Source of the DNA: Burkholderiales bacterium
GTDB taxonomy: Bacteria > Pseudomonadota > Gammaproteobacteria > Burkholderiales > UBA11063
Assembly: GCA_028693355.1 (NCBI GenBank)
Contig: JAQUVM010000001.1
Coordinates: 1 to 64,000 of the forward strand
DNA: 64,000 nt
Direction: 5' to 3'
Positions 34,934 through 46,824 of this stretch are shown here, in pieces. The position numbers were made by a program, and so were the translations under genes. The notes under the pieces are model-generated. The model saw only the letters and a program-made list of their open reading frames with translations, did no database searches and was not told the origin of the DNA. Within the stretch, counting starts at the first letter, position 1. Each line of letters starts with the position of its first letter.

Positions 34934-34949
34934 TGTTTCACATGAAACG
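34934..34949. promoter_or_regulatory. parS-like site
   Basis: TGTTTCACATGAAACG, 14/16 match to TGTTTCACGTGAAACA; intergenic. Confidence 0.7.
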
Positions 34950-35002: not shown

Positions 35003-36244
35003 TTACAGCAATTTTTGTTTAATTACAGAGAAAACTTTTTCAGAGGAACCCTGATATTTACTAATAAATTCATTACAGTTACTTTTTAATTTATTATACT
35101 CTTCTACATTGCAAGCTAAATCATTAACACATTGCTTTAATTCACTAATTTTTATTTGTCTAGCACACCCTATTTGTGTACTATTTTTAGCTACATCAGC
35201 AAAATTAAACATAGATTGTCCAAATATAACAGGTATATTCATAAAAATTGCTTCAATAGGGTTCTGCCCTCCACAATCAGTAAAACTCCCCCCTATTACA
35301 GTAAGATAGCTAATAGCGTAGTATGCAAGCATTTCACCCATACTGTCCCCAATAACTACTTTAGTGGTATTTTCTATTTGTTGATTGCTTGAGCGTTTTT
35401 GATAAGATATATTTTTAGATTTTAATAAGTTTTCTAAAACAGAAAACCTCTCTGGGTGGCGTGGAATAATTAAATAACAAACATCTAAATCTAAATCTAT
35501 ATTGTTTAAGATTAGCTCTTCTTCACCATCACGAGTCGAAGCAAAAGTAATTACTCGTCTACTCCCAAACAATTTTTTAAATAATTCAACAAGCTGAACT
35601 GTATCATTATTTACAACTAGATCAAATTTGGTATTACCTATAATACTTAAATCACCCAGATAAGATAATTTTTTGAAATTATTAGCAGTATTTTCATCCT
35701 GACACAATATACCAGAGAATTTATTTATAATAGGCATTAAAGCCCATTTAAAGCGATTATATCCTCTATAAGATCTATCAGATAACCTAGCATTAGCAAG
35801 ATATAAAGGAACTCTATAATCAGCAGCAAAATGAATTAGATTAGGCCAAATTTCAGTTTCCATTATAATACCAATTTTAGGCTTAAAAGTTTTATAAAAA
35901 CTCTTTACACAAAAACTAATATCATAAGGTACATAGTGAACAATCGCCTGAGGATAGAGTGATTTGGCTGTATCACGCCCTGTTGGCGTCATATTAGTAA
36001 TCAAAGTTTGATAATTGGGTAAATTCGTTTCAATTAGTTCAACTAGTTTTTGCATAGCTCGAGTTTCACCAACTGATACCGAATGTAACCAAATGATTGG
36101 CTTAGTACTTGGATTATGTAATTTACACCCAAATCTTTCATGCCAATTTTCTAAATATGCTGAGTTTTTCTTGCCGCGTTTTTTTAGATATAACGGTATT
36201 AATGGTGCTATAACATAAGTTAGTAAGGAATAAAATTTACGCAT
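35003..36244 (-). CDS. waaA: 3-deoxy-D-manno-octulosonic acid (Kdo) transferase
   Basis: WLHSVSVGETRAMQ, METEIWPNLI, ARLSDRSYRGYNRFKW, IGGSFTDCGGQNPIEA. Confidence 0.95.
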   Translation of the reverse strand: MRKFYSLLTYVIAPLIPLYLKKRGKKNSAYLENWHERFGCKLHNPSTKPIIWLHSVSVGETRAMQKLVELIETNLPNYQTLITNMTPTGRDTAKSLYPQAIVHYVPYDISFCVKSFYKTFKPKIGIIMETEIWPNLIHFAADYRVPLYLANARLSDRSYRGYNRFKWALMPIINKFSGILCQDENTANNFKKLSYLGDLSIIGNTKFDLVVNNDTVQLVELFKKLFGSRRVITFASTRDGEEELILNNIDLDLDVCYLIIPRHPERFSVLENLLKSKNISYQKRSSNQQIENTTKVVIGDSMGEMLAYYAISYLTVIGGSFTDCGGQNPIEAIFMNIPVIFGQSMFNFADVAKNSTQIGCARQIKISELKQCVNDLACNVEEYNKLKSNCNEFISKYQGSSEKVFSVIKQKLL

Positions 36245-37330: not shown

Positions 37331-38469
37331 TTATATATTATTAATAATATTTTTTGCTAATGCATATAATAGAGATATTGATTGATCTGCGAACATAAAT
37401 AATTTTACTTGTATTTTTTTGTTTATTTGCCACCCTCTAAGCCAAGCTCTAAAATGGATACTATAATTATGACCTTTTTTTACTAATTCTTTAGTTTTAA
37501 ATTTGCTTATATAACTTATATATGAGGCTAAACTATATTCTGTTAGTTTATTTTTTGTAAAATTAAACCCTAAAAAATCAAAGCCTGCGATTAGTTTACC
37601 AGTCTTGGTTTTACCACTGTGAGTAACTAATTTTAGTTTATTCAGGATTATATACATTTTGCGAATTAAATCTTTTAACTTTCTTCAGCTATTTGTAAAA
37701 AATACATAATCATCCATAAATCTAATGTAGTTAGTAGTCACCATAAGCTTATCAATTGGCAATAAAAAAACACCAGCTAAAAGTGGTGATAGTGGGCTAC
37801 CAAGAGGAATACCGAGTCGTATAATATTGACATATCCATCTAGGCTTTCTGTTCTACGAATTGTTTGATAAATTAAGCTAAGTAATGCTTTATCGTCTAT
37901 TAAATTAGCTAGCATATTACATAATATATCATGATTGATGCTACTATAAAAACTAGCAATATCTGTTTTAAAAAAGAAGGTATTATTTTGTACAAATTTA
38001 CGAGAAGAAGTGATGGCGGCTTGAATGCCGCCATTACCAGATAAATGCGTACATTGTTTAGATAGTTTTGGCTTTAAATATTCGGTTAACACTAGAGAAA
38101 TAGCTTTTATTACTATCACATCTTCGGCATTCCAAACAGCTCTTGAACCATCATCACAATTAGTACGGTAACGTAACATTGGAGAGAAGCGATAGCTTCC
38201 ATCCAATGTTTCCGAATTAGAGGCTTTATTGAATCCCAGCGCTCACGGAGTAACCAGATATCACTACTATAGCTAACTTCAGATTGAACTGTACAATGCA
38301 ATGAGCGACAACACCTATAAATAATAGGTTAGGAGCGAGTTAAGTAGTACAGTTTAAAAATGAGTTGAGCTATATCGGGGAAGTTTTCTCGTGATGTGCA
38401 ACACCATAAAAAAGCTTTCTCTAATATTTCGTTACTAGCTACTTGAGTTAAGAGCACTGAACTTTTCAA
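37331..38469 (-). pseudogene. Degraded reverse transcriptase (RNA-directed DNA polymerase)
   Basis: Pieces read ILEKAFLWCCTSRENFPD | SSDIWLLRERWDSIKPL | LDGSYRFSPMLRYRTNCDDGSRAVWNAEDVIVIKA...FFKTDIASFYSSINHD...RLGIPLGSPLSPLLAG...YIRFMDDYVFF | IAGFDFLGFNF. Broken by a MITE (38268-38374), a frameshift near 38207-38245 and an in-frame TGA at 37685-37687. Confidence 0.88.
38268..38374 (-). mobile_element. MITE copy 1, TA-flanked, inserted in the RT gene
   Basis: TIRs TATAGCTAACTTCAGATTGAACTGTAC / GTACAGTTTAAAAATGAGTTGAGCTATA. Removing it with one TA restores the reading frame FPDSSDIW. Confidence 0.85.
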
Positions 38470-40266: not shown

Positions 40267-41226
40267 TTAATTGAGAACTATACTTTTTATAGTATTAATA
40301 ACATCACTAACAAGCACTTCCATTCCTTTACCTCCAAGATTTTTAGCTATATCAGATTCTAATATACCTACATACCCTGGATCACTCGCCAAATATATAG
40401 CTATAGTTGGTGTATGTGTTAAATTAGCAAAATGAGTAAATCCTGTATCTACACCTATTACTACATCAGATTTAACTATTAGATCCGCTAGTTTAGTAAA
40501 AGATAACTTTTCAATAAGAGTAATTCGTTCGCTATTTAAATTACTAATTAAACTTATAGCAAATTCATATTCAGCTTGATTACTATAAGTTATAACTATT
40601 TGTTTATTGCTATTATTAATCACCCAATTAGACAATTCAGTCCAATTTTCTAAAGACCATTTTTTATTTTCTTTAGACGTACCATGTAAAAATAATATAT
40701 AACCATTTACAAAATTTATTCCACAATCTTCAGATTTATATTGAAAATCAATTTTACGTAAATCATGCTTTAGATTAAATATTTTGGCTATAAGACCACG
40801 TAATCTTGGTACTGCAATATTATTTTGATTTACATTATAAGTAAAATCATAAAATAAACTAGCTATAGGCTCACGAGCCGACTTTCTATCCAATCCGAAC
40901 ACATAACCATCAAAAAGGTATTTGGATAGCATAGCGGACTTAATAAGACCCTGTGTATCGATTATATAGTCGTATTTGGTATTAGATAATGTCTTTTTAA
41001 AATTAGCTAGTTTATTAAACCAAGTAAATTTATTTTTTTTCCATTTTCTAAGTGGAATAGGAATTACATTATCAATAAGTGGAGATAAATTAGCAACTCC
41101 AGTAAAATTTTCATCAACTAACCAATCAATAGTTACATTGGGATTGGTTTTTTTAATATCAGGTAATACAGTGAATGTGTGAAAAATATCACCAATTGAC
41201 GACAATCTTATTATTAATATACGCAC
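40267..41226 (-). CDS. waaC: LPS heptosyltransferase I
   Basis: MRILIIRLSSIGDIFHTFTVLPDI, DTQGLIKSA, LFLHGTSKENKKW, GVDTGFTHFANL. Confidence 0.94.
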   Translation of the reverse strand: MRILIIRLSSIGDIFHTFTVLPDIKKTNPNVTIDWLVDENFTGVANLSPLIDNVIPIPLRKWKKNKFTWFNKLANFKKTLSNTKYDYIIDTQGLIKSAMLSKYLFDGYVFGLDRKSAREPIASLFYDFTYNVNQNNIAVPRLRGLIAKIFNLKHDLRKIDFQYKSEDCGINFVNGYILFLHGTSKENKKWSLENWTELSNWVINNSNKQIVITYSNQAEYEFAISLISNLNSERITLIEKLSFTKLADLIVKSDVVIGVDTGFTHFANLTHTPTIAIYLASDPGYVGILESDIAKNLGGKGMEVLVSDVINTIKSIVLN

Positions 41227-41235
41227 AAATATTCC

Positions 41236-41807
41236 TTATCCACAGTTTATTGTTAATAACTTCATTTTATCTTGTTATGAATTATAAGTTATCCACAGAT
41301 TTTATATTTTTCATTTTTTTATTTACAATCATTTTTATAAAAATACCTACATTTTATACAAAGTAAATACTTATATAACTATCTATTATATTTATCTAAT
41401 TTAAGTTATCCACATAAAAACTAGTATATAATAACAATAATAAAATATATTTTATATAAATAATTAATATATTGCAAATAAATTAAAAGATAAAACTTAT
41501 TTTTTAAAAATGAGTATTTAAAAATATTTTAGAACATTTTTTTATCTTGTATAAATATATACTATTAATTAGTTAATAAAGTTTAGTTATCCACAGGTTT
41601 ATAAAAAGATTAAAACTTATCCACAAATAGTCAACTGTAAATAGTCTAGAAATATACAAAGTAATTCAATGATTAATACTTTGATTTATATATTTTTTTT
41701 TAGATATAAACAGAAAAAATGTAAGCTAATAATAACAATAAATTATATGATATTATATATATAATAAATAAATGTTAAAATTACGTTCTGCAAAAAGGAG
41801 TTTATAA
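41236..41807. other. Putative chromosomal replication origin (oriC)
   Basis: Perfect DnaA boxes TTATCCACA at 41236, 41289, 41406, 41587 and 41617, all on + strand, in a very AT-rich ~570-bp intergenic region between divergent genes, with parS sites nearby. Confidence 0.78.
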
Positions 41808-42581
41808 ATGGCAAAAGAAGGTAAATATACCGTTGAAAAGATTACATATTTAAAACAATGGACAGATCATTTATTTAGTTTTAAGATTACTAGAGATTCT
41901 GCTTATAAATTTATTCCAGGTCAATTTGCACGTTTAGGTGTAAAAAAAGAAGATGATACTATTGTTTGGAGACCTTACTCTATAGTATCTGCTGATTATG
42001 ATGAAGAATTAGAGTTTTATTCGATAGTAGTTCCAGATGGCGAATTCACACAAAAGCTTAAAGACCTTAAATGTGGTGATGATATATATATAGATAAAAC
42101 AAATTATGGATTATTAACTACCGATAGATTTGAAAATGGTAAAGATTTATGGTTTTTATCAACTGGTACTGGGTTAGCTCCATTTATTTCTATAATGTAT
42201 GATTTCTCTATTTGGGAACAATATGATAAAGTAATATTAGTGCACGGTGTACGTGAAGAGAACGAACTAACTTATCAAGAAGAAATAAATTCTTTCTTTA
42301 CTCATGAATATTATGGTGAACTAGTAAAAGATAAACTACAATATATAAAAGTTGTTTCACGTGAAACAACAGGTGATTTAAATGGAAGAATTACAACTTT
42401 AATAGAAAATGGTGAATTAGAAAAATTTGCTAATACTCCTATTACTATTGAAAGTAGTCGTATAATGATTTGTGGTAATCCACAAATGGTAGATGATACA
42501 CGTAAAATATTAGCTGCACGTGGGTTAACTATATCTAAAAGAGCTAATCCTGGTAATATGGCTGTTGAAAATCTATGGTAA
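41808..42581 (+). CDS. fpr: Ferredoxin--NADP reductase
   Basis: FIPGQFARLGV, WRPYSIVSADYDEELEFYSIVVPDGEFTQKL, LSTGTGLAPFISI, ICGNPQMVDD. Confidence 0.93.
   Translation: MAKEGKYTVEKITYLKQWTDHLFSFKITRDSAYKFIPGQFARLGVKKEDDTIVWRPYSIVSADYDEELEFYSIVVPDGEFTQKLKDLKCGDDIYIDKTNYGLLTTDRFENGKDLWFLSTGTGLAPFISIMYDFSIWEQYDKVILVHGVREENELTYQEEINSFFTHEYYGELVKDKLQYIKVVSRETTGDLNGRITTLIENGELEKFANTPITIESSRIMICGNPQMVDDTRKILAARGLTISKRANPGNMAVENLW
42353..42368. promoter_or_regulatory. Perfect parS site within fpr
   Basis: TGTTTCACGTGAAACA, exact 16-bp palindrome. Confidence 0.88.
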
Positions 42582-42716
42582 TAATATAAATTAAACCTTT
42601 AGGGCTAGTATATTGTAAAATATATCTTTAACATACGTATGAACATAATTAATGTATTTTAAAAATAAATAATTTTATTTACATTAGATTATGTTTTTAT
42701 TTTAAAAGGTTTTTAT

Positions 42717-43388
42717 ATGTCAAATATTAAATTTTCAATTTCAGTATTGTTAGGATTTATTATTTTATCTGGTAGTTTAGTGTATATTAATAAAAATAAA
42801 GATACATTAGTTCAAGCTAAAGGTGTAGCAGAAGTTAAAGTTAAATCAGATTTAGCTACTTGGCAAATATCACTTAATCAATCTGGATATAATTTAGCTT
42901 CAGCATATAATCAAATGGAGAGTGATCAAAGTAATGTAATTGCAATATTAAAAGATCAAGGTATTCAAGAAAGTGATATTCAATCTAATAATATTTCTAT
43001 TTCAAATATGTTGATTGATAATAAAACTCAGTATCAAATATATAATACTATTACTGTTTCTAGTAAAAATGTTGATTCAATATATAAAATTAATCAAAAT
43101 CAAAAGCTTTTTATAGATAAAGGTATTTTTATTTCTGGTAGTTATGTAAATTATTATTTTACTGCAATTAATAATATTAAAGAACCTCTTTTAAAAGATT
43201 CTGTTCTTAATACTAAAATATCAGCTGGTAAAATAGCTGGAAATCTTAACAAAGAAATTGCTGAAGTTAGAAACATTAATCAAGGTGTTATCTCAGTTAA
43301 TTCAGCAGATGGTAGTCAATACAATGATATTAATTCATTATATAAAACAGTTAGAGTTGTAACAACTGCGACTTACTTAATGAAATAA
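42717..43388 (+). CDS. SIMPL domain (DUF541) protein
   Basis: VQAKGVAEVKVKSDLATWQISLNQSG..., N-terminal TM anchor. Confidence 0.85.
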   Translation: MSNIKFSISVLLGFIILSGSLVYINKNKDTLVQAKGVAEVKVKSDLATWQISLNQSGYNLASAYNQMESDQSNVIAILKDQGIQESDIQSNNISISNMLIDNKTQYQIYNTITVSSKNVDSIYKINQNQKLFIDKGIFISGSYVNYYFTAINNIKEPLLKDSVLNTKISAGKIAGNLNKEIAEVRNINQGVISVNSADGSQYNDINSLYKTVRVVTTATYLMK

Positions 43389-43450
43389 AATATAAATAAT
43401 TATTAAAAATTTTAATAATAATACCTCTACAAATTAAGTAGGGGTATTGT

Positions 43451-43466
43451 TGTTTCATGTGGAACA
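43451..43466. promoter_or_regulatory. parS-like site upstream of rsmB
   Basis: TGTTTCATGTGGAACA, 14/16 match to the parS consensus. Confidence 0.68.
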
Positions 43467-43468
43467 TT

Positions 43469-44695
43469 ATGAGCGAATATAAAATAATAAAAAGAATTAT
43501 AGATTTAGTTTATTATGAAAATAAAAATTTAAATGATTTAATTAATCAGTATAAAGAAGATGAAAATATAGTAAAAATAAGATATATTGTTTATGATTTA
43601 CTACGTTATAGTACATCTATTGATTATATATTGAGTAAACTAGTAAGAAATATTGATTATGATGTAATGGGTATTCTTAGAATAGGTATATATGAGCTTT
43701 GGTTAAGTAAAAAACCTGAATATGCAATTATTAATGATTTAGTTAATTTAACTAAAGAATTTGATGAAAAAAAGAAATCATTTGTAAATGCAGTATTGCG
43801 TAGTTTTCAAAGAAGTAAAGAAAAATTTATAAAAGATATAGATAATGAATACTCGTATAAATATAATATTCCATCATGGTTATTAAACTATTTAAAAAAA
43901 GAATATAAAAATAATTATCTAGAAATAATAAAAAGTTTTATGTATAAACCATCTTTTGGTTTAAGAGTTAATAGTAAAAAGAACTCATATAATGAATATT
44001 TGAAATTATTAATAGAAAATAATATTGAATATAAAGAAATTGATAGCAAAATAGTTTTAGATAAAGCTATTAATGTTAGTGGAATACCGGGCTTTTATGA
44101 GGGCTTGGTGAGTGTCCAAGATGTAGCGGCACAGTATATGCTAGATATATTAAAAAAACATAATATTGAAATAAAAAATGCTCTAGATATATGTAGTGCA
44201 CCAGGTGGCAAAACTTGCCAGTTATTAGAAAATTATGATTGTAATTTAACGTCTGTAGATATAGATGAAAATCGTTTAAAAAAAGTAAAGCAAAATTTAG
44301 ACAGATTAGAACTTAATTGCAATACTATACTAGGCGATGCTAATAATAAACGTTGGTGGAATGGTGACAAGTATGATTTTATTATTGCTGATGTACCTTG
44401 TTCAGCTCTTGGAACTATTAAAAGAAATCCAGATATAAAAATAACACGACGTTTAGAGGAAATTAGTAATTTTGTACAAACGCAAAGAAGTATTATTAAT
44501 AATATTTGGGAATTATTAAATTTAAATTGTTACATGATATATATAACTTGTTCTATTATGAAAGAAGAAAATCAATTAAATGTAGAATGGTTATCTAATA
44601 ATTTAAATGGATTTAAGATTATAGATGAGCTACAAATTTACCCATCTGAAAATAACGATGGTTTGTATTATGCTTTAATTAAAAAAGTAGGATGA
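43469..44695 (+). CDS. rsmB: 16S rRNA (cytosine(967)-C(5))-methyltransferase
   Basis: NusB-like N-terminus; PGFYEGLVSVQDVAAQ, DICSAPGGKTCQLLE, DVPCSALGTIKRNPDIK. Start taken at MSEYK (ORF track 43457). Confidence 0.95.
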   Translation: MSEYKIIKRIIDLVYYENKNLNDLINQYKEDENIVKIRYIVYDLLRYSTSIDYILSKLVRNIDYDVMGILRIGIYELWLSKKPEYAIINDLVNLTKEFDEKKKSFVNAVLRSFQRSKEKFIKDIDNEYSYKYNIPSWLLNYLKKEYKNNYLEIIKSFMYKPSFGLRVNSKKNSYNEYLKLLIENNIEYKEIDSKIVLDKAINVSGIPGFYEGLVSVQDVAAQYMLDILKKHNIEIKNALDICSAPGGKTCQLLENYDCNLTSVDIDENRLKKVKQNLDRLELNCNTILGDANNKRWWNGDKYDFIIADVPCSALGTIKRNPDIKITRRLEEISNFVQTQRSIINNIWELLNLNCYMIYITCSIMKEENQLNVEWLSNNLNGFKIIDELQIYPSENNDGLYYALIKKVG

Positions 44696-46824
44696 TTATG
44701 AAAAAAATAAATATAATATTTTTTACAGTAATTTTAACATTAATAATGTTTAGTTATTTTTATGTAACTATATATTCAAAATACGATGTTATGCTTTATT
44801 TGAATGATTATAGAAAAATTATTCAATTAAATAAAGTAATAGAAGCAATTTTATTATTTATTATTTTTGGGTTCGTGTATAGATTATTTTTTAGAAAAAA
44901 TAATGCCTTTGGATCTATTCTTACAAAAAAACTATTTATACTATTATCAATAGTGATACTAATACCATCATTAATAAATATAAAAATAGCTAATTACTTT
45001 ATTGATAATACGGTTAATAGATTATTTAATCCTCAAATAGAACAACTTTTAGATAATAGCTTTAATATAGCAGAAGAAAGTATAAAATATTTCTCTAAAG
45101 AATTACGTAAGAAGTCAGTAATTGCAGGTGAATATTTAAAGCTAACTGATAAAGATGAAAGTAAATCAGAAATAGCCAAAGTTAGAAAAATGCTTGATGT
45201 TGATGGGATTAGTATTTATAACAATAAAGGAAATTTATTAGTTCAAGATAACGATAAGAAATATTTAAACGATGAGTTAGAAGATTTTATTGTAGCCAAA
45301 ATAAAAAAAGTTGGTTATTTTTATGAAATAAATAAAAGCAAAGGTGGAGATTATATATTTAATTATTATCAATATTATAATGATGGAAAAATAGTTGCTT
45401 TAAGTCAAATTGCTCCAGAATTTATAAAAATTGATAATAATAATATATTGCATAATAAAGAACTTTATCAAGGATTATTAAATAATAAAGATAATTTAAA
45501 AGATGTATACACGAGTACTCTGATTATAAGTGTTTTATTATCTATAACTATTGCTGTGTTATTAACGTTATTCTTTGCACAATTTTTGATAAAACGTATT
45601 TCTAGTTTAATTGAAAATATAGAGTCTATAAAAAAAGGTTCTTATAGTAATCAAAATATATTTAAAGGTAATGATGAATTATCTCAATTAATTCACTCTT
45701 TTAATGATATGGGACATAGCTTGGAAGAATCTCAAAAAATAGAGAAAAAGCAAAAATTAGAATTAACGGAATACAAAAATTATCTTGAAAATATTATAAA
45801 TAATCTAAGCCTTAGTGTGATAGTTTATGATGATAAATATGTTATAAAAAATGTTAATTTAATAACACAAGATATTTTAAATATAGAAATAAATGATATA
45901 TTAAATATAAATATTGATAAATGGGATAATTCATATAAACATTTAGAAGGTTTAATTAAACTAATTAAAACAAAACTAGAATATGAATTAAATGAATGGG
46001 AAGAAAATATAGTATTTAGATATAAACATTATATAAAAAATTTATATGTAAAAACTATTCGTTATGAAATAAATGGCAGTATTGAATATATTACATTAAT
46101 AAGTGATGTAACTAATCTAATTATAGCTAGGCAAAATCAAGCTTGGGCTGATATTGCAAAACGATTAGCTCATGAAATAAAAAACCCATTAACGCCAATA
46201 GTTCTATCAGCTGAACGTATTCAAATGAAATTAGTTCCGAAGTTGATAGAAAAAGATCAGGAATTTTTAAATAGATTAGTTAATCAAATTATTTTACAAG
46301 TTGATGATTTAAAAGAGCTTGTTAATAAGTTTAGAGATTTTGCTAACATAAGTAAACCGCATTTAGTTAGACTTAATTTGGTAGAGTTTTTTAATCAATT
46401 TATGATACTTTATGAAAATATGAGCTTTATAAAACTTATCCATAATTTACCAGAAAATAAGAGTTTTGTTTTAGGTGATCAAAGTTTATTAAGACAAGTT
46501 TTTCATAACTTAGTAAAAAATTCTATAGAAAGTGTTGAAAATAATGAAAATAAAGATGTAAAAATTACCTTAACATGTACAGAAAATGTTATGAATATTT
46601 TGGTTAGTGATAATGGGCATGGTTTTAGTGAAAACATTATGAATAACCTGTTTGAGCCTTATCAGACAACGAAAGGAGTTAAAGGAAGTGGCCTAGGCAT
46701 GGCAATAGTTAAGAAAATTATTGATGAGCATCATGGAAAAATTGAAGTATTTAATGACGATGGAGCTAATATTGTAGTAAAATTACCACTAACCGTTTCC
46801 AATGTAGAATTTGATAGGTTATAA
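44692..46824 (+). CDS. ntrY: Nitrogen regulation sensor histidine kinase NtrY
   Basis: TM/HAMP region, PAS, H-box WADIAKRLAHEIKNPLTPIVLSAERIQ, N/G boxes. Confidence 0.93.
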   Translation: MIMKKINIIFFTVILTLIMFSYFYVTIYSKYDVMLYLNDYRKIIQLNKVIEAILLFIIFGFVYRLFFRKNNAFGSILTKKLFILLSIVILIPSLINIKIANYFIDNTVNRLFNPQIEQLLDNSFNIAEESIKYFSKELRKKSVIAGEYLKLTDKDESKSEIAKVRKMLDVDGISIYNNKGNLLVQDNDKKYLNDELEDFIVAKIKKVGYFYEINKSKGGDYIFNYYQYYNDGKIVALSQIAPEFIKIDNNNILHNKELYQGLLNNKDNLKDVYTSTLIISVLLSITIAVLLTLFFAQFLIKRISSLIENIESIKKGSYSNQNIFKGNDELSQLIHSFNDMGHSLEESQKIEKKQKLELTEYKNYLENIINNLSLSVIVYDDKYVIKNVNLITQDILNIEINDILNINIDKWDNSYKHLEGLIKLIKTKLEYELNEWEENIVFRYKHYIKNLYVKTIRYEINGSIEYITLISDVTNLIIARQNQAWADIAKRLAHEIKNPLTPIVLSAERIQMKLVPKLIEKDQEFLNRLVNQIILQVDDLKELVNKFRDFANISKPHLVRLNLVEFFNQFMILYENMSFIKLIHNLPENKSFVLGDQSLLRQVFHNLVKNSIESVENNENKDVKITLTCTENVMNILVSDNGHGFSENIMNNLFEPYQTTKGVKGSGLGMAIVKKIIDEHHGKIEVFNDDGANIVVKLPLTVSNVEFDRL

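Follow-up and report, generated by a model that had tools for sequence, protein, structure and literature searches.

In most bacteria, parS sites cluster near oriC. The locus treated here raises the question of why a perfect copy of the 16-bp parS consensus should lie within fpr, a metabolic gene, and whether this copy and two imperfect ones nearby are centromeres. The DNA is from a Burkholderiales bacterium (assembly GCA_028693355.1), and the window, meaning the whole stretch that was analyzed, comprises the first 64,000 nucleotides of contig JAQUVM010000001.1. It is very probable that a standard ParABS system uses the three sites as its chromosomal parS centromeres at an oriC located at 41227-41807, and that the right-hand site has turned over. 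Features of the locus are collected in Table 1.

Table 1. Coordinates of origin, centromere and gene features in the window
Feature	Coordinates	Strand	Description
waaA (Kdo transferase)	35003..36244	-	PF04413; adjoins left parS
Left-hand parS	34934..34949	.	TGTTTCACATGAAACG; 2 mismatches; just beyond waaA 3′ end; same position in relatives
Heptosyltransferase gene	40267..41226	-	PF01075; other flank of oriC
oriC (likely)	41227..41807	.	581-bp intergenic region, 15.5% GC; aligned with five relatives
DnaA box	41236..41244	+	TTATCCACA, exact
DnaA box	41289..41297	+	TTATCCACA, exact
DnaA box	41406..41414	+	TTATCCACA, exact
DnaA box	41587..41595	+	TTATCCACA, exact
DnaA box	41617..41625	+	TTATCCACA, exact
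fpr	41808..42581	+	Ferredoxin-NADP reductase-type flavoprotein, PF00175 + PF00970; houses perfect parS
Perfect parS	42353..42368	.	TGTTTCACGTGAAACA; in fpr; core of 20-bp perfect palindrome 42351-42370
Terminator-like hairpin	43417..43451	+	Directly upstream of 43451 parS; -20.4 kcal/mol, z -5.1 (43405-43470)
Right-hand parS (putatively decayed)	43451..43466	.	TGTTTCATGTGGAACA; 2 mismatches; terminator-like hairpin on one side, rsmB start on other
rsmB	43469..44695	+	PF01189; start set from comparison with relatives

The first-pass annotation had reported an exact consensus match within the fpr ORF and 14/16 matches at the other two positions. A scan of the window recovers all three, with 0, 2 and 2 mismatches, respectively, and the exact match does lie inside fpr. 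The 34934 site was outside the span first given for the finding, yet it is part of the same set. The 43451 site adjoins rsmB, as had been proposed: it ends 2 bp before the likely ATG, and the first ATG of the ORF (43457) falls within the site itself. Across the perfect site, the fpr codons read (GT)T GTT TCA CGT GAA ACA, including the last base of the preceding codon.

Chance and base composition are rejected as the source of these sites by shuffling, by a reversed-pattern control and by genome-wide counts. With up to 3 mismatches to the consensus allowed, the window holds five matches versus 0.28 expected, a number reached in none of 100 shuffles. The genome-wide scan that the annotation had called for was carried out on the draft (2,308,498 bp in 169 contigs), and at up to 2 mismatches it returned exactly these three sites and no match to the reversed pattern. 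Instead of being evenly spread over the chromosome, all three occur on one 94-kb contig, span no more than 8.5 kb, and are at most 7 kb away from the cluster of DnaA boxes. Relaxing the scan to 3 mismatches yields 24 sites versus 8 in the control, the 21 additional ones being scattered (2 on the window's contig and 19 elsewhere). Matches poorer than the three are for the most part dispersed background, though somewhat more numerous than in the control. Of the three sites, only the one in fpr is perfect; in Pseudomonas aeruginosa, imperfect parS sites are reported to be bound still, though more weakly (PMC4368675).

The three sites bracket the 581-bp intergenic region, which contains five exact TTATCCACA boxes, all on one strand, versus ~0.01 expected from the 43 such words in the genome. 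Cumulative GC skew in the window reaches its minimum (-1.02) at the 40-42 kb step; there is a second low of -1.00 near 9 kb, so the window skew by itself does not settle the matter. In a single-contig relative (G001, 2,820,660 bp), skew was measured in 20 stretches of 20 kb and as a 1-kb profile. Samples between 295 kb and 1.415 Mb have positive skew, those from 1.555 Mb through 15 kb have negative skew, and in the 1-kb profile the shift from negative to positive comes at ~161 kb. This point coincides with the orthologous intergenic region, and parS sites stand at 160434 and 164228. The gene dnaA is 47 kb away from oriC in G001, and in the window genome it is on a contig other than the window's. 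Given the boxes, the skew switch in G001 and the conserved pairing of parS sites described below, the origin call holds without an adjacent dnaA, and parS clustering, earlier put forward as independent support for that call, agrees with these other signals. A second origin beside dnaA or parB was considered and rejected, since no parS within 2 mismatches was found on contigs C83 and C89 of the window genome or in the G001 stretches around dnaA and parB. Like other origins whose DnaA boxes lie away from dnaA, this one is an AT-rich box cluster at a GC-skew switch; it differs from them in being placed between a heptosyltransferase gene and fpr.

Several further observations concern base composition and boxes. 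An AT-rich trough that includes coding genes is centered on oriC (40267-46824), with third-position GC of 8-14% in the heptosyltransferase gene, fpr, a SIMPL-family gene, rsmB and ntrY. A similar trough occurs in G001 (L158, 157-164 kb), where mean GC3 is lower in the oriC stretch (0.20) than in any other of the 20 sampled (0.24-0.33). In G005 and G009, the origin region has few or no exact TTATCCACA boxes, and words resembling TTATTAACA stand at the aligned box positions. Elsewhere in the window genome, contig C121 carries three DnaA boxes within 200 bp, beside ordinary-looking ORFs.

The arrangement recurs in related genomes. The genus set comprises 23 genomes, with relatives labelled as Neisseriaceae, Burkholderiales or Proteobacteria MAGs, and parS with up to 2 mismatches is present in 18 of them. 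The usual order is waaA(-), heptosyltransferase(-), oriC, fpr(+), rsmB(+), and parS sites stand at both ends of this block. Sites flank both sides of the oriC/fpr region in 11 genomes, at a spacing of 3.6-4.0 kb in eight (G001, G003, G005, G008, G009, G010, G011 and G015), 5.5 kb in G017, 6.8 kb in G004 and 8.5 kb in the window genome. In the window genome, additional genes separate waaA from the heptosyltransferase gene, and an extra SIMPL-family gene lies between fpr and the 43451 site. In the former interval are reverse transcriptase fragments (37331-38206, with the PF00078 match spanning 37685-38206) that may stem from a broken retroelement. In G003, waaA is reversed in orientation, and no match to the window's heptosyltransferase was found. 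While the central dinucleotide of parS varies across the genus (CG, CA/TG, TA), its arms are mostly kept.

No site within 2 mismatches was detected in five genomes (G002, G006, G007, G020 and G022). All of these except G020 also yielded no fpr locus at E 1e-60, which makes missing contigs likely; in G020, fpr is on a 3.35-kb contig that carries no parS. Of 16 fpr loci in 15 genomes, 13 have a parS inside the gene or within ~170 bp of its end. The remaining loci are those of G020, G014, in which a perfect parS is on a different contig, and the second of two different fpr loci in G015 (site 2.4 kb upstream), a genome that may be a mixed bin. G018 and G019 have one parS each. Outside the genus, the stretches around 70 fpr loci (L018-L087) contain no parS-like word within 3 mismatches, and as far as those loci go, the link between fpr and parS is genus-specific. 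Sites within ORFs are also seen at L185 2290, 3814 and 6382 (G021) and at L187 11438 (G016), in genes that, named by eye, resemble comM, recN, a ferredoxin-reductase-like gene and rpoB; two of these sites also read V-S-R-E-T.

Most relatives have their right-hand parS in the fpr-rsmB interval, where it often adjoins the fpr terminator or itself makes up that terminator, and the 43451 site occupies the matching position. A perfect parS within fpr occurs only in the window genome, G003 and G004, and in these the fpr-rsmB site has 2 mismatches, is absent, or has 2 mismatches, respectively. DnaA proteins from 19 genomes group the three carriers as a single clade (support 100/100), in a midpoint-rooted tree that places the window genome (G000) and G003 on long branches. 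Their in-gene site encodes V-S-R-E-T, where other members of the genus have T-R-(E/D). The Ser is Thr in the other 13 genus loci, and the terminal Thr is found elsewhere in the genus only in G008 and G015a (T-R-D-T). At the 70 loci outside the genus, the motif is VTRE in 65, VTRD, LTRE and VSRE in one each, and unread in two; judged from these sequences, Ser at that position appears to be tolerated elsewhere but rare.

Ancestrally, the genus would have had two parS sites separated by about 3.6-4 kb, the first near the 3′ end of waaA and the second in the fpr-rsmB interval. The perfect site would then have arisen within fpr, at a conserved motif whose codons were already parS-like (four base changes turn those of G009 (L012) into a perfect site), and the old fpr-rsmB site would have decayed in the lineage of the window genome. 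On this comparison of sequences, the in-fpr site looks recent and lineage-specific, and seems to have replaced an older neighboring one. A bolder version, conceivable though held with somewhat less than even confidence, is that parS moved from an intergenic terminator into an enzyme motif, that the need for a strong ParB site close to oriC changed residues of Fpr in one clade, and that the old site decayed. The changes in that reading, starting from V-T-R-E-N, would be Thr to Ser and, probably, Asn to Thr, with selection for ParB binding as the presumed driver. If true, this would be a case of chromosome-segregation selection rewriting a metabolic protein. No paper describing this genus, or a turnover of parS within fpr, was found in the literature searched.

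The alternative that survives best, improbable as it is, holds that the perfect 16-mer is a by-product of a V-T/S-R-E motif written in AT-rich codons and is no ParB site. The motif does encode something close to parS, with 12 of the 16 bases matching in G009; VTRE is widespread, as the outside loci attest, and the V-S-R-E-T stretches of comM (G021) and rpoB (G016) yield parS-like words as well. However, when 20,000 back-translations were made per species from its protein, following local codon usage, a perfect match at that place appeared in 0.35% (window genome), 0.85% (L008) and 0.88% (L009), yet it is present in all three carriers. For each of the three pairs of carriers, codons for the same residue elsewhere in fpr agree in 68%. 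Protein constraint alone is thus an unlikely origin of the site. The motif residues of the carriers also differ from those of the remaining genus, and the site is the only perfect parS of its genome, ~0.5 kb from the oriC intergenic region.

Slightly less probable again is that the intergenic right-hand palindrome has been kept as a transcription terminator for fpr and not as a centromere. In G009, a terminator-like hairpin downstream of fpr has the parS palindrome itself as its stem (L012 10775-10830, -21.9 kcal/mol), and such a hairpin abuts parS in L009, L010 and the window. Nevertheless, the 16-bp word stays constant while the surrounding hairpin differs, and a terminator for fpr leaves both the left-hand site at waaA and the in-gene site unexplained.

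The window genome has both parA and parB, whose absence would have counted against the annotation's proposal. They are on another contig, of 10.6 kb, with parA (L177 7743-8522) flanked by parB and by an ORF that was named rsmG-like by eye. The ParB (C89) contains ParB_N, HTH_ParB and ParB_C domains and matches PDB chain 6t1f (Chromosome-partitioning protein ParB) at 2.5e-44; another ParB-like match, on C60, is weak (28 bits) and under the cut-off. The protein has GKSR followed by GHAR at a spacing of 28 residues, as expected of ParB. This spacing, rather than a direct alignment, was used to assign R173 and G201 in Caulobacter numbering, and R and G are present in 14/14 genus ParBs in which the pattern was readable (14 of 21 read by the script). 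Noc sites are spread round the chromosome, whereas those of the window are clustered. That the sites serve a Noc-type nucleoid occlusion protein is highly improbable: ParB and Noc are paralogues whose site words differ at two positions only and whose specificity involves R173 and G201, according to PMC7383237, and Noc structures also match the window-genome ParB, but in each of the three sites the bases at both differing positions are those of parS, unlike the Noc word TATTTCCCGGGAAATA, and the residue pattern is that of ParB, so that both word and protein speak against Noc.

With ParABS preferred, ParB from the rsmG-parA-parB operon would load at the three parS sites and spread across the adjoining origin DNA, and ParA, probably together with SMC, would move newly copied origins apart. 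In bacteria, parAB and parS are usually found together near the origin. G001 is an exception: its parB lies at 2.31 Mb, and a distance of 672 kb, or 23.8% of the chromosome length, separates it from oriC and parS, which puts it outside the usual ori domain. One genome with parAB far from its centromeres provides a useful exception to the rule.

In comparison with the ParABS systems of Bacillus subtilis, Caulobacter and Pseudomonas aeruginosa, the genus shares the 16-bp consensus, a ParA-ParB operon beside rsmG and a few sites tight around oriC, while having only two or three such sites. In P. aeruginosa, 9/10 of the sites parS1-10 are within coding sequences, according to PMC4368675. An in-gene parS is the norm in that species, whereas here an older intergenic and a younger in-gene site can be distinguished by comparison. 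In-gene parS is already well known, and the interest of the locus is in the traceable replacement and the distant parAB. A likely replication origin and its centromeres are fixed for an uncultured, AT-rich genus, and parS turnover can be followed in living relatives by comparing the old sites with the new ones and weighing the price of the new site to the protein.

Tandem arrays with perfect parS sites in their units were encountered in two genomes from another family of the order. In G106 (C61, L250 8564-11286), 13 parS sites recur with a period of ~220 bp, and no invariant run is longer than the parS block (19 of 242 columns; next longest 5), as if the 13-copy array were a centromere satellite under selection. 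In G062 (C1, L251 8561-9869), three perfect sites and one 1-mismatch copy recur with a period of 389 bp. Both arrays are between ORFs resembling metK and dapF (named by eye) and are ~25 kb from dnaA; in G062, the array, at 397 kb, is close to a switch in skew sign that falls between the samples at 400 kb and 440 kb.
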